Source: Myxococcota bacterium (lineage in GTDB: Bacteria > Myxococcota_A > UBA796 > UBA9615 > JAKLKC01). From it: a stretch of DNA of 64,000 bases. Made by a program: the position numbers and the translations under genes. This document shows positions 10,812 through 15,044 of the stretch, in pieces. Below the pieces are notes generated by a model. The model searched no databases. It was not told where the DNA came from and saw only the letters and a program-made list of their open reading frames with translations. The stretch is from the NCBI GenBank assembly GCA_023150875.1, contig JAKLKC010000034.1:1-64000 (forward strand). Direction: 5' to 3'. Positions within the stretch are counted from its first letter, which is position 1, and every line of letters starts with the position of its first letter.

Positions 10812-11004
10812 GCGCCTCTCCCCGGGGGGGCCCTCCGCGCGCCGCGCGGCCCGTGTGGGACGTTCGCAGAGGGAGGCCGGGGTGTAAAGGGGAGCGCCGG
10901 GAGCCTCCCGCGATCCGCCGCTTGCGCGGCGCGGCGCCCCCTGGTACGTTCCCCCCGACCTCGGCGGCGGTCGGCGCTCCCGGGGTCGTTCGAAAAACCG
11001 AATC

Positions 11005-11190
11005 GAGCGGATGCGGTGCCCCAAGGATGGGGTGAAACGGGAAGCCGGTGAGCCGGGGGAACCGCCCCCAGCGAGACCGGCGCGGCCCCCGCCACTGTGA
11101 CCGGGGACGGGCGCACACGATGCCACCGAGGGCAGCTCGGGAAGGCGTGCGTCCCGGCAGATCCGGAAGCCAGGAGACCGGCCGATCCGC
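11005..11190 (+). ncRNA. Cobalamin riboswitch
   Basis: The hallmarks appear in order: a GGTGCC...GGGGTGAAACGGGAAGCCGGTGAG region (about 11014-11053), CCCGCCACTGTGA (11087-11100) and the B12 box GGAAGCCAGGAGACCGGCC (11165-11183). The element lies 19-150 bases upstream of a TonB-dependent receptor gene, the classic btuB arrangement, where bound adenosylcobalamin lowers expression. Whether it works by termination or by hiding a ribosome-binding site is not decidable by eye. The boundaries are approximate. Confidence 0.93.
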
Positions 11191-11322
11191 GGCGTTGTCG
11201 TCCTTCGGGTGGAGGGGCGCGCGCTCGGACTACGCTCCCCGCCAGGAACGCTCCGAGCCCGCGCGGCGAAGGCCCAGCCGGGCCCCGCCGCTCCGCCTCC
11301 CGAGGCGCGGCCGGGGCGTCCC

Positions 11323-13509
11323 GTGGTCCTCCCGTCCTCCCCACTCCTCGCTCTCCTCCGCCGGGTCGCCGGCCGGGTGGCGGCGTGCCTCGTCCTCGCC
11401 CCCGGGGCGATGGCGGGCGAGGCCGAGGGATCGGAGGACGCCGACTCCGGAGCCCCGGGGATCGCCCGCGCCGCCGACGACACCGTGGACGTCGTCGCCG
11501 AGGCCGAGGAGGGAGCCGCCCCCGATCCCGCCGACACCTCCGGCGCGGTCACGGTGGTCCGGTCCGACGACCCCACGCTCCCGCCCGGCGCCGACCTCGG
11601 CGACGCCCTCTCCGCGGCCCCGGGCGTCCACGTCCGCAGGCTCGGGGGGCTGGGCGACTACACCACCGCCACCATCCGGGGCTCCACCGCGCGCCAGGTG
11701 GAGGTCTTCCTGGACGGCGTCCCCCTCAACCCCGACGGCCTCGGGGTCGTCAACCTCGCCGAGCTGCCCCTGTCGGGGCTGGAGCGGGTGGAGGTCTGGC
11801 GGGGCGGCGCTCCCGCGTGGCTCGGCTCGGCGGCCATGGGGGGCGTGGTCAACCTCGTCACCCCCACCGGGGACCGCCCCCCGACCCGCATCGAGGGCGC
11901 CTACGGGCAGTACGTCACCCGCCGCGTCCACGCCTCGGGGGGCACGGACCTGGGCCGGGGGGCCGACCTGCGTCTCTCCGTCGACTCCTTCGGCACCCGC
12001 GGCGACTTCGCCTACTTCGACGACCGGGCCACCCCCTACAACCTCTTCGACGACCGCACCGTCACCCGCGAGAACAACGACAAGCAGGACATCTCGGTGC
12101 TCGCCCGGGTGCGGGGCGGTTCGGACCGGCTCTCCCTGACCTTCCAGGACGGCTTCTACGCCCGGGACGAGGGGATCCCGGGCAACGCCCACGACCCCGC
12201 CCTGTCGGCCCACCTCTCCACGGTCCGGAACCTGGCCCACCTGGCCCTGGGGGTCCCCCTCCCCCGGGCGGGCCGCGTGGACGCCCGCCTGTACCACCAG
12301 TACCGCCGGGAGCACTACACCGACCTGGGGGGCGAGGTCGGCTGGGGGGTCTACGACCAGGTCTACCGCTATCACGACCTCGGGGGGACCGCGCGGGTCC
12401 GGCTGGTCCCCCTCCCCTTCCTGGCCGCGGACGTCTCCGCCGCGCTGCGGGTCGACACCTACCAGCCCTACAGCCTCCTGGAGGATCCCCCCACCGACGG
12501 CACGCGGTGGCGCGGCACCGGCCGCCTCTCCGGCGAGGCTTCCCTCTCGCTTTGGGGCGACCGCCTGAGGGTCTCCGCCGTCCTGGAGGGGCGGATCGTC
12601 GACGACCGCTTCCTGGGGGAGGTCCCCTACAGCACCCTCCGGGTGAACGAGGGGGCCGAGCCCGTGCGGTTCCCCTTCACGCCCCGGCTGGGGGTGCGCT
12701 TCCGCCCCGTCGCCGCCCTGACCCTCAAGGCCAACGCCGGCCGCTACGTCCGCCTGCCGGACTTCATGGAGATCTACGGCAACCGCGGCGCCCTCATCGG
12801 CAACTACGACCTGCGCCCCGAGTCGGGGACCACCCTCGACGCGGGGGCGCGGTTCGAGGGGACGGTGGGCAAGACCCGGGCGGCCGCGGAGGTGGTGTTC
12901 TTCCACACCGCGAGCGAGGACCTCATCGCCTACGTCACCAACGCCCAGCGCCAGGCGATGCCCATCAACCTGGGCGCCGCCCGGGTCTCGGGGGTGGAGG
13001 CGGGCGTCCAGGCGACGGTGCTGGGCCTCCTGCACCTGGGCGCCGACCTGACCTGGGCCGACTCCCGCAACGACTCGCCGGACGACGCCTACGCCGGCAA
13101 CCGGATCCCCCACCTCCCCGAGTGGGAGGTCCAGGCCCGGGTGGCCCTGGTCTGGCCCTTCCTGCGGCTGGGTTGGAGCGTGAGCCACACCGCGGGCACC
13201 TTCGAGGACGCCACCAACTGGTACCTGGAGCCCCCCCGCACCGTCCACGGCGCCCACCTCCGGGTGCAGCCCGGCCGCCGCTGGCCCTTCCTGGCCCTCG
13301 AGGTCCGGAACCTCACCGACGAGCGGGTCGCCGTGGTGCCCGCCAACCCCCTGGACCCCACCGGCGACGCCCGCGCCGTCAAGGCGCTGACCGACTTCAC
13401 GGGCTACCCCACGCCCGGACGCACCTTCCTCGCGACCATCGGCCTCACCCTCCCGGGGCCGTCCCCCCACCCCCGACCCGAAGCGCCCCCAAGCGGGGCC
13501 AAGGAGTAG
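11323..13509 (+). CDS. btuB: BtuB-type TonB-dependent cobalamin receptor
   Basis: Outer-membrane receptor for vitamin B12 uptake. The plug domain is clear (DLGDALSAAPGVHVRRLGGL, STARQVEVFLDGVPLN, LERVEVWRGGAPAWLG, GGVVNLVTP). It is followed by a 22-strand-type barrel with receptor signatures (YVRLPDFMEIYGNRG, LRPESGTTLDAG) and a C-terminus typical of the family (YPTPGRTFLATIGLTL). The riboswitch just upstream supports the substrate. The frame is open from a GTG at 11209 without a ribosome-binding site; the GTG at 11323 begins a better signal peptide (cleavage after AMA) and is preferred, giving 728 residues. It heads a three-gene operon. Confidence 0.9.
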   Translation: MVLPSSPLLALLRRVAGRVAACLVLAPGAMAGEAEGSEDADSGAPGIARAADDTVDVVAEAEEGAAPDPADTSGAVTVVRSDDPTLPPGADLGDALSAAPGVHVRRLGGLGDYTTATIRGSTARQVEVFLDGVPLNPDGLGVVNLAELPLSGLERVEVWRGGAPAWLGSAAMGGVVNLVTPTGDRPPTRIEGAYGQYVTRRVHASGGTDLGRGADLRLSVDSFGTRGDFAYFDDRATPYNLFDDRTVTRENNDKQDISVLARVRGGSDRLSLTFQDGFYARDEGIPGNAHDPALSAHLSTVRNLAHLALGVPLPRAGRVDARLYHQYRREHYTDLGGEVGWGVYDQVYRYHDLGGTARVRLVPLPFLAADVSAALRVDTYQPYSLLEDPPTDGTRWRGTGRLSGEASLSLWGDRLRVSAVLEGRIVDDRFLGEVPYSTLRVNEGAEPVRFPFTPRLGVRFRPVAALTLKANAGRYVRLPDFMEIYGNRGALIGNYDLRPESGTTLDAGARFEGTVGKTRAAAEVVFFHTASEDLIAYVTNAQRQAMPINLGAARVSGVEAGVQATVLGLLHLGADLTWADSRNDSPDDAYAGNRIPHLPEWEVQARVALVWPFLRLGWSVSHTAGTFEDATNWYLEPPRTVHGAHLRVQPGRRWPFLALEVRNLTDERVAVVPANPLDPTGDARAVKALTDFTGYPTPGRTFLATIGLTLPGPSPHPRPEAPPSGAKE

Positions 13510-13512
13510 ACC

Positions 13513-14691
13513 ATGCGTGGACCTTCCTTCGAGACCGCCTGGCTCGCCACCGCCCTCCTGGCCGTGGCCGCCGGCTGCACCCCCGCCAGCGACGATGACG
13601 ACTCCGCGGGCGCGGACGACGACTCCGCGGGCGCGGACGACGACACCGCCGGCGACGACGACGTCGCGGCGGGCGCCACCCACGCGGTGGTGACGACGAC
13701 GGACTACTCCGTCGGCTCCCTCGCCCTGGTGGAGCTGGACGGCTGGGCCGTCCAGGACGAGATCGTCACCACGTCCGGCGATCCCTCGGTGACCGTGGAC
13801 GACGGCACGATCCTGGTGGTCAACGCCTTCGGGGCGGACAACCTCACTGCCTACGACCCCGAGGACTTCTCGGCCCCCCTGTTCCAGGTCAGCACCGGCG
13901 CCGGCAGCAACCCGCGGCGGGTGGCCTCGTGCGGGGGAGCCTACTTCGTGACCCGCTACGAGGAGGCGTCGTTGCTGGTGCTGGACCCGGGGACCGGCCA
14001 GACCGTGGGCACCGTCGACCTGTCGAGCTGGGACGACGGCGACGGCACCCCCGAGGCGTTCTCGGCCCTCGCCCTGGGCGACACGCTCTACGTGAGCCTC
14101 CAGCGGTTCGAGCGCGCCGGCTACGTGTGGACGCCGGCCGCCGACGGCGGGCGGATCCTGGAGATCGACTGCGGCACCCGGACCGTGCTGAGGGAGTTCA
14201 CCACCGGCCCGTCCCCGACCCTGGCCCGCCACCCCATGGACCCGGGCAAGCTGCTGGTCTTCGAGGGCGTCTACTACGACGAGACCTTCGCCGTGGCCCA
14301 GGACGGCGGTGCCCGGGTCTTCGATCCCGGGACCGGCGCCCTCGACGCGGGCTACACCTGGCCGGAGGCGGAGGTGGGGGGCAACCTCGCCGGCTTCGGC
14401 GGCCTGGCCAGCGGCAAGGGGATCCTCGCCGTCGGCACCGACGGGGGCTCGCGGATCTACTGCGCCGACCTCGCCGCCGGCACCGCGACCCTGCTGGACG
14501 AGAGCACCTCATTCGTCAACGACGTCGCGGCGGACGACCGCGGGGACGTGTGGGTGGTGCAGCGGGTGTCCTGGCTGGACCCCGACTCCGACGCCGGGCT
14601 GAGGGTCTTCGAGGCCGAGACCTGCACCGAGCGGACCGCCGGGGGGTGGATCGCCACGTCCCTCGAGCCCTACGCGGTGGCCTTCCTGTGA
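13513..14691 (+). CDS. BtuG-like beta-propeller surface lipoprotein
   Basis: A 392-residue lipoprotein (VAAGC, Cys22) with a short DDDS/DDDT acidic linker (residues 26-50). The rest is repeated four-strand blades of YncE/quinoprotein type, for example VTTTDYSVGSLALVEL, ILVVNAFGADNLTAYDP and YVSLQRFERAGYVWTP. It starts three bases after btuB and so falls under the cobalamin riboswitch. In Bacteroidota, BtuG is a surface beta-propeller lipoprotein that binds B12 and caps BtuB; the gene order and fold here suggest the same job. Homology to BtuG itself is not shown. Confidence 0.7.
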   Translation: MRGPSFETAWLATALLAVAAGCTPASDDDDSAGADDDSAGADDDTAGDDDVAAGATHAVVTTTDYSVGSLALVELDGWAVQDEIVTTSGDPSVTVDDGTILVVNAFGADNLTAYDPEDFSAPLFQVSTGAGSNPRRVASCGGAYFVTRYEEASLLVLDPGTGQTVGTVDLSSWDDGDGTPEAFSALALGDTLYVSLQRFERAGYVWTPAADGGRILEIDCGTRTVLREFTTGPSPTLARHPMDPGKLLVFEGVYYDETFAVAQDGGARVFDPGTGALDAGYTWPEAEVGGNLAGFGGLASGKGILAVGTDGGSRIYCADLAAGTATLLDESTSFVNDVAADDRGDVWVVQRVSWLDPDSDAGLRVFEAETCTERTAGGWIATSLEPYAVAFL

Positions 14692-15044
14692 TCCGACACT
14701 CCTCCCCGACCCGCGCCGCCCCGGGGGGCGCGGGACTCCTGGCCGCCCTCGCGTCGCTGGCGGGCTGCCACCCCACCCCCGCCTGCGACGCGATGTGCGA
14801 GCCCGCGGCGGCGCGGTTCGAGGCGTGCCTGGACGAGTGGGGCCTCGGGTGGGGCGAGACGTCGGGCTACGAAGACCGCGACGACCACCTGGGCTGGTGC
14901 GCCACCTGGGTCCAGGAGCAGCGGGCCCTGGCCCGGGACGACGGGGGAGCCGGCGCTTTCGCGGCGCTGGAGAGTCGCTGCGGAGGGATGATGGAGACCT
15001 TCTCGGAGGGGGGGTGCGACGCGTACTACTCGGCCTGGCAGTAG
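14688..15044 (+). CDS. Small Cys-rich lipoprotein in cobalamin operon
   Basis: A 118-residue protein starting at a GTG that overlaps the previous stop by four bases (GTGA), so it is probably translationally coupled. The signal peptide ends in LAGC (Cys27). The mature part has six further Cys in an even spread (PAC, AMC, EAC, GWC, SRC, GGC), consistent with three disulfides, in a mostly helical acidic domain. No known family was recognised. As the third gene behind the riboswitch it may assist B12 capture or stabilise the BtuB/propeller complex, by inference from position only. Confidence 0.65.
   Translation: MIRHSSPTRAAPGGAGLLAALASLAGCHPTPACDAMCEPAAARFEACLDEWGLGWGETSGYEDRDDHLGWCATWVQEQRALARDDGGAGAFAALESRCGGMMETFSEGGCDAYYSAWQ

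Follow-up and report, generated by a model that had tools for sequence, protein, structure and literature searches.

The window analysed here is a stretch of 64,000 nucleotides from a Myxococcota bacterium. On its forward strand a cobalamin riboswitch is followed by three closely spaced genes:

10997..11199, + strand: cobalamin riboswitch aptamer (RF00174; cmscan 94.1 bits, E 4e-22)
11200..11322, + strand: presumed expression platform / 5' UTR, between the aptamer and the likely receptor start
11209..13509, + strand: open reading frame of a BtuB-type TonB-dependent receptor (Pfam Plug and TonB_dep_Rec barrel domains)
13513..14691, + strand: predicted BtuG-like seven-bladed beta-propeller lipoprotein, 392 aa (lipobox, family alignment, AlphaFold2 model)
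14688..15044, + strand: small helical lipoprotein of 118 aa with six Cys (GTG start, lipobox LAGC, Cys27)

The first-pass annotation described the riboswitch as complete, and the full RF00174 model of Rfam is indeed matched (all 189 model positions, 1-189) with 94.1 bits, where the gathering score is 31.5. Its start is corrected from 11005 to 10997. It is the sole RF00174 copy in the 6.92-Mb, 98%-complete host genome. In the leader behind it (11200..11322) an intrinsic terminator was looked for and none was found, and a promoter scan was equally uninformative. Shuffled versions of this leader fold equally strongly (z -0.34).

The gene behind the riboswitch shows both domains of the proposed TonB-dependent receptor, with matches above cut-off to Plug (PF07715, E 4e-20) and to the TonB_dep_Rec barrel (PF00593, E 1e-28). 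Its true start is likely the GTG near 11323, which would place it ahead of a signal peptide and the TonB-box-like motif DTVDVVAEA. Models of specific receptors are less informative. Against TIGR01779 (TonB-B12) the protein scores 113.5 bits (E 1e-32) where the curated cut-off is 599.7, so it does not pass this test, and the MxcH (siderophore) model scores slightly above TonB-B12, both being far under cut-off. The receptors found in Desulfobacterota and Gammaproteobacteria (see below) likewise stay under the TIGR01779 cut-off. Since the best specific models are this far under their cut-offs, it is the riboswitch and the relatives that carry the B12 assignment, rather than the sequence of the receptor.

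The propeller gene begins three bases after the receptor, as had been reported (receptor stop 13509, propeller ATG 13513), with AGGAG just before the ATG. The encoded protein has a lipobox AAGC with lipid-anchor Cys22, a repetitive acidic tether (about residues 23-52) and the propeller itself (53-392), which is strongly acidic (net -33). A lipoprotein signal and a linker are features expected of a BtuG-like protein, and both are present: Cys22 is conserved in the aligned members and the tether is acidic. Taken alone, the propeller matches no family in Pfam or NCBIfam and no sequence in the PDB. Searches for the YncE/YVTN sequence family gave no Pfam or NCBIfam match even at E 1, and a weak YVTN-repeat match occurs in one of the 45 aligned members. 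The blades had been labelled 'YncE-type'; no sequence family in Pfam or NCBIfam backs this label, and the nearest fold is BtuG.

To describe the family we aligned the window protein with 44 relatives (45 members in total), which share 25-37% identity with it and about 20 near-invariant positions; together with the conserved gene neighbourhood this is more than chance would give. The lipid-anchor Cys is conserved and the acidic tether variable; the alignment further shows the motifs VDLSxxxDxDGxPE and LxRLDR and, in Myxococcota, four well-conserved Cys within the propeller domain. The Pfam model for BtuG, PF16819, recognises a Prevotella BtuG at E 4e-10 and matches neither the propeller protein nor anything else in the host genome, and DUF4374, the XusB family, matches neither the propeller nor its 44 aligned relatives. 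Searching the PDB with the 45-member profile gives matches at E 1e-5 to 4e-3: an archaeal S-layer propeller comes first, and most of the entries after it are BtuG (E 1e-4 to 4e-3), with YncE and Lp49 interspersed. The comparison with BtuG and YncE families proposed in the first-pass annotation gives a mixed result: neither PF16819 nor YncE matches the single protein, whereas the profile of the family mainly matches BtuG structures. Judged by Pfam and by pairwise sequence comparison, the propeller falls outside the BtuG family. In a tree of propellers most receptor-linked members of the class group together and two unlinked Myxococcota propellers nest among linked ones; the node where BtuG joins has very low support (0.12).

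An AlphaFold2 model, built with the window propeller and 13 relatives as input, has a mean pLDDT of 84.6, with values >90 over most of the propeller. When this model was compared with 350,542 PDB chains using Foldseek, ranks 1-13 were all BtuG (E 7e-14 to 2e-11), followed by the archaeal S-layer propeller 1l0q and more BtuG entries; other families appear from E 4e-9. XusB is high among these matches, at E 7e-9 against 7e-14 for the best BtuG. VIA-align yields Z scores of 28-30.6 for BtuG and 25-26 for YncE (about 25.5), and 1l0q ties BtuG by this measure (29.2). Both the top Foldseek ranks and most of the best VIA-align rows are thus BtuG, and the predicted fold is that of BtuG, at a remote sequence identity of about 14-16%. 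Two residues of the BtuG2 ligand cavity, Trp194 and Trp272, align with non-aromatic positions of the propeller, as far as a weak profile alignment can tell; the binding mode would then differ.

The third gene starts with a GTG at 14688 and overlaps the propeller gene, which ends at 14691, by the four bases noted earlier. Its product is about 90 aa when mature and disulfide-rich, and its structural model is helical (mean pLDDT 86) with high confidence for the mature part. In the alignment of 32 members the lipobox Cys is shared, and Trp55 and another six Cys are invariant. Pfam has no match for the protein, and at Foldseek sensitivity the PDB has no similar fold; Rop and Frizzled came up as weak sequence matches and were judged to be chance.

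Genome comparison shows that the receptor-propeller pair is maintained throughout the class. Propeller homologues occur in 55 of the 58 class genomes, mostly as a single copy (many further low-scoring rows of the class search cover the N-terminus and acidic tether only). At nearly all assessable loci the receptor lies directly upstream, usually overlapping the propeller gene or within about 100 bases of it, and just three loci with enough upstream sequence are without a receptor (L038, L044, L048). By our own tally, a cobalamin riboswitch is located upstream in 35 of the 46 loci whose contig reaches far enough. At the other 11 assessable loci no upstream riboswitch was recognised; eight of these, negative in the strict genome search, were still negative in a normal Rfam scan and are thus without a recognised riboswitch. 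The synteny search that had been proposed therefore recovers the pair class-wide, with the riboswitch in front at most of the assessable loci. A propeller located away from btuB in relatives had been named beforehand as evidence against the reading, and this is not what nearly all loci show.

A number of loci deserve separate mention. In L044 and L048 (genus g8) the propeller adjoins neither a receptor nor a riboswitch, and in genome G009 the riboswitch sits elsewhere, before a different lipoprotein. In genome G051 of the same class (locus L090, JAKLKF010000031.1) the three genes diverge from another cobalamin riboswitch, which heads btuC-btuD-btuF-btuR-cobU-cobT.

The six-Cys gene is distributed more narrowly. 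It follows the propeller in most, though not all, class members, and is missing at all seven Desulfobacterota and Gammaproteobacteria loci and at all 20 loci of other Myxococcota classes. The same genomes also contain paralogues with neither gene of the pair in the flanks examined, which span a few kb, and this weakens the idea of a B12-specific protein. The proposed role of the Cys-rich lipoprotein as an additional part of the capture complex thus finds no support, given its absence from the distant loci and the stand-alone paralogues. It is a class-specific lipoprotein that is co-encoded with the capture genes. Six-Cys lipoproteins recur away from btuB in class genomes (L173-L188), where several of the genes start right behind apparent tRNA gene ends and the upstream frames contain NPRVGGSTPS.

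Relatives of the propeller in the contig collection are retrieved with a 12-sequence alignment; a single-sequence scan finds none. This alignment contains propeller sequences only, and it yielded 16 loci, seven of which are distant ones from Desulfobacterota and Gammaproteobacteria (Gammaproteobacteria, Desulfosarcina, Desulfobacteraceae, Desulfococcus and unclassified Deltaproteobacteria according to the record titles). All seven have a receptor upstream and a cobalamin riboswitch, the latter being cut by the contig end in L098. The propeller-only scan is the decisive control for the pairing with receptor and riboswitch. Adjacency to btuB in a cobalamin-riboswitch locus, another feature expected of a BtuG-like protein, is accordingly present.

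The genes behind the distant propellers also concern corrinoids. In Desulfobacterota the next gene of these riboswitch-led operons encodes a BtuF:CbiZ fusion, in which a BtuF-type binding protein is joined to CbiZ, an amidohydrolase of corrinoid salvage (by domains in L094 and L097, by inspection in L099). In L097 it is followed by another BtuF and then by a FecCD-like permease and an ABC ATPase, which are BtuC/BtuD-like by inspection. The gene after the Gammaproteobacterial propeller is a cobalamin adenosyltransferase. The three Desulfobacterota propellers (L094:5866-7149, L097:3256-4620, L099:5803-7158) are without a clear N-terminal lipobox and have a Gly/Ser-rich end with a CFI motif, behind which a hydrophobic segment is found in L097 and L099. 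Judged from these termini, they probably use a different, C-terminal anchoring signal.

A broader profile matches 105 of 286 Myxococcota genomes at E 1e-10. For loci of other Myxococcota classes, a cobalamin riboswitch is present in 16 of 20, and at two more, L132 and L133, the sequence ends right before the receptor. An adjacent receptor is present in 13 of 20 (downstream in L134). In five loci of another Myxococcota group (L135, L138, L139, L144, L147) the riboswitch leads straight into the propeller gene, no receptor lying between them, and the divergent relatives L145 and L149 are away from both. Behind the propeller, L139 (3538-5657) and L147 (3653-5772) encode a lipoprotein of about 230 aa with no Pfam match, a candidate for a further corrinoid-binding protein. 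Overall, the suggestion that a BtuG-like propeller and a BtuB-type receptor might stand behind a cobalamin riboswitch outside Bacteroidota holds, and in the class studied here this arrangement is the rule.

We also searched plasmid records. The window propeller found none; the Gammaproteobacterial propeller found two Bacteroidota loci, L189 (4366-8053) and L190 (4182-7825), where the gene after a TonB-dependent receptor encodes a propeller lipoprotein; Pfam has no significant match for this lipoprotein, and the loci have no riboswitch. The L190 receptor, the one of the two that was tested, is MxcH-like, and the L189 pair sits among NRPS-like and dehydrogenase genes. Such neighbours suggest a system for metallophores that has a dedicated lid. 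In hhalign comparisons the window family is closer to the L190 propeller than to Prevotella BtuG (E 3e-9 against 4e-4).

Concerning the host itself, a search of the draft assembly with one marker per function revealed no homologue of CbiC, of the FecCD/BtuC permease or of Peripla_BP_2/BtuF, and 41 matches to B12-binding domains. From its gene content the host looks like a heavy user of B12 that, going by the marker tested, does not make the cofactor and has no standard inner-membrane importer. FecCD is missing from several relatives too and present in others; the outer-membrane part is thus kept alongside differing solutions at the inner membrane.

Taking these results together, we consider it quite likely that the propeller sits on the cell surface as a lipoprotein, captures corrinoids and docks on the BtuB-type receptor, working as BtuG does in spite of its remote sequence. 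The analysis shows the riboswitch, the gene order, the lipobox, a predicted propeller fold nearest to BtuG, the conserved pairing and, in relatives, linked genes for the import and salvage of B12; from these we infer surface exposure, corrinoid binding, receptor docking and lid motion. At low intracellular cobalamin the riboswitch would be released and the receptor, propeller and small lipoprotein would be made together. The receptor would act as the TonB-driven pore for vitamin B12 or related corrinoids at the outer membrane, in which the propeller would be lipid-anchored, reaching out on its acidic tether, if surface exposure in Myxococcota is assumed. One face of the propeller would catch the corrinoid and hand it to the receptor, probably as a hinged lid like BtuG on the Bacteroides BtuB, and the six-Cys lipoprotein would be a co-expressed accessory. 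The acidity of the propeller agrees with BtuG2, whose B12-binding face is reported to be acidic; in BtuG this face caps the BtuB barrel (PMC10404256).

Lids of this receptor-propeller type serve more than one ligand (BtuBG, XusAB; PMC13142918), and the ligand is therefore argued here from the riboswitch and the corrinoid genes instead of from the propeller. The pair might alternatively import a metallophore (a cobalt or iron chelate) with an XusB-like propeller, the riboswitch only coupling metal uptake to cobalamin status. Cobalamin riboswitches are known to control cobalt uptake too, XusB is among the better fold matches, and the nearest Bacteroidota propeller relatives stand behind receptors of siderophore type (MxcH-like in L190) with no cobalamin riboswitch, one of them near NRPS-type genes. 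What makes this explanation unlikely is the gene content: with CbiC missing, nothing points to de novo synthesis of cobalamin, for which cobalt would be required, and the neighbours in relatives are BtuF:CbiZ, BtuCDF, BtuR, CobU, CobT and adenosyltransferase with no metal genes among them. Also by fold BtuG beats XusB (E 7e-14 against 7e-9).

Given that the host and some relatives have no BtuF or BtuC homologue, the propeller could instead face the periplasm and take B12 from the receptor in place of BtuF. We regard this as improbable, as L035 and L097 keep the propeller in the same cluster as btuC, btuD and btuF, the fold matches the extracellular BtuG, and the Cys-containing tail in Desulfobacterota points to a different anchor, with no sign of a soluble periplasmic protein. 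Less probable still is an enzyme, for instance of the SMP-30/gluconolactonase-like type, that is merely carried in the operon. The SGL/NHL-type matches of a few relatives that favour it are weak and confined to 3 of the 45 members, the conserved residues form no set recognised as catalytic, and conservation tracks the B12 riboswitch and receptor.

Returning to surface capture of corrinoids, the closest known counterparts are BtuG1/2/3 of Bacteroides thetaiotaomicron (PDB 3dsm, 8bmy, 8bmx, 8blw, 8p97, 8okv), the best PDB fold match. Shared with these are the N-terminal lipid anchor and linker, the propeller fold, the acidic domain and a gene beside btuB in a riboswitch-controlled B12 locus; moreover, the Desulfobacterota order btuB-propeller-btuF is the same as in a Prevotella locus (L191). 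The propeller family described here differs in its occurrence outside Bacteroidota, its low identity and lack of a PF16819 match, its own two motifs, the four conserved Cys in Myxococcota and the cavity Trp residues that are not conserved in the weak alignment. XusA-XusB of Bacteroides likewise combines a TonB receptor with a propeller-lipoprotein lid and ranks high in the Foldseek list, but takes iron siderophores as ligands, belongs to DUF4374 and has the lower fold score (PMC13142918). YncE and PQQ-linked propellers have the YVTN-type propeller fold, though with a lower Z score than BtuG and no sequence family match. BtuB of Escherichia coli (TIGR01779) resembles the receptor in its plug and barrel and in the cobalamin riboswitch upstream, whereas the receptor here scores 113 bits against the cut-off of 599.7; we know of no surface propeller used by Escherichia coli. 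The six-Cys protein can be compared to BtuH, BtuJ (DUF4465) and BtuK of Bacteroides, which are also extra lipoproteins in riboswitch-controlled B12 loci, but differs from these in being small, helical and disulfide-rich with no PDB fold match.

Wexler et al. (2018) found no BtuG homologue outside Bacteroidetes with the BlastP settings they used, and raised the question of why this phylum alone had evolved such a component (PMC6143338); the restriction is repeated in PMC12751083. Homologues of DUF4465 have been reported in Myxococcota and other phyla, often co-located with PF16819 propellers (PMC13398666). The propeller family described here lies outside PF16819. Our literature search, whose coverage excludes most subscription papers and preprints, returned no description of the family, and within the same scope nothing that ties YVTN propellers, Desulfobacterota BtuG homologues or Myxococcota to this arrangement.

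Tentatively, and as a reading that is plausible if somewhat short of probable, the loci may represent a large family, so far unrecognised, of propellers that dock on BtuB and capture corrinoids across Myxococcota, Desulfobacterota and Gammaproteobacteria, with a disulfide-rich class-specific partner in Myxococcota and a BtuCDF-free inner-membrane route in some carriers. Given corrinoid capture by the propeller, unnamed hypothetical proteins in many genomes would gain a function that can be tested, and the riboswitch-marked receptor-lid pairs are offered for structural comparison. If the propeller does capture corrinoids, the premise of a Bacteroidota-only system fails for at least three further lineages, and consequently competition in the gut could not be the general explanation. 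Surface capture of B12 would, if the family reading is true, be a wider and perhaps older design and not an adaptation of Bacteroidota to the gut.
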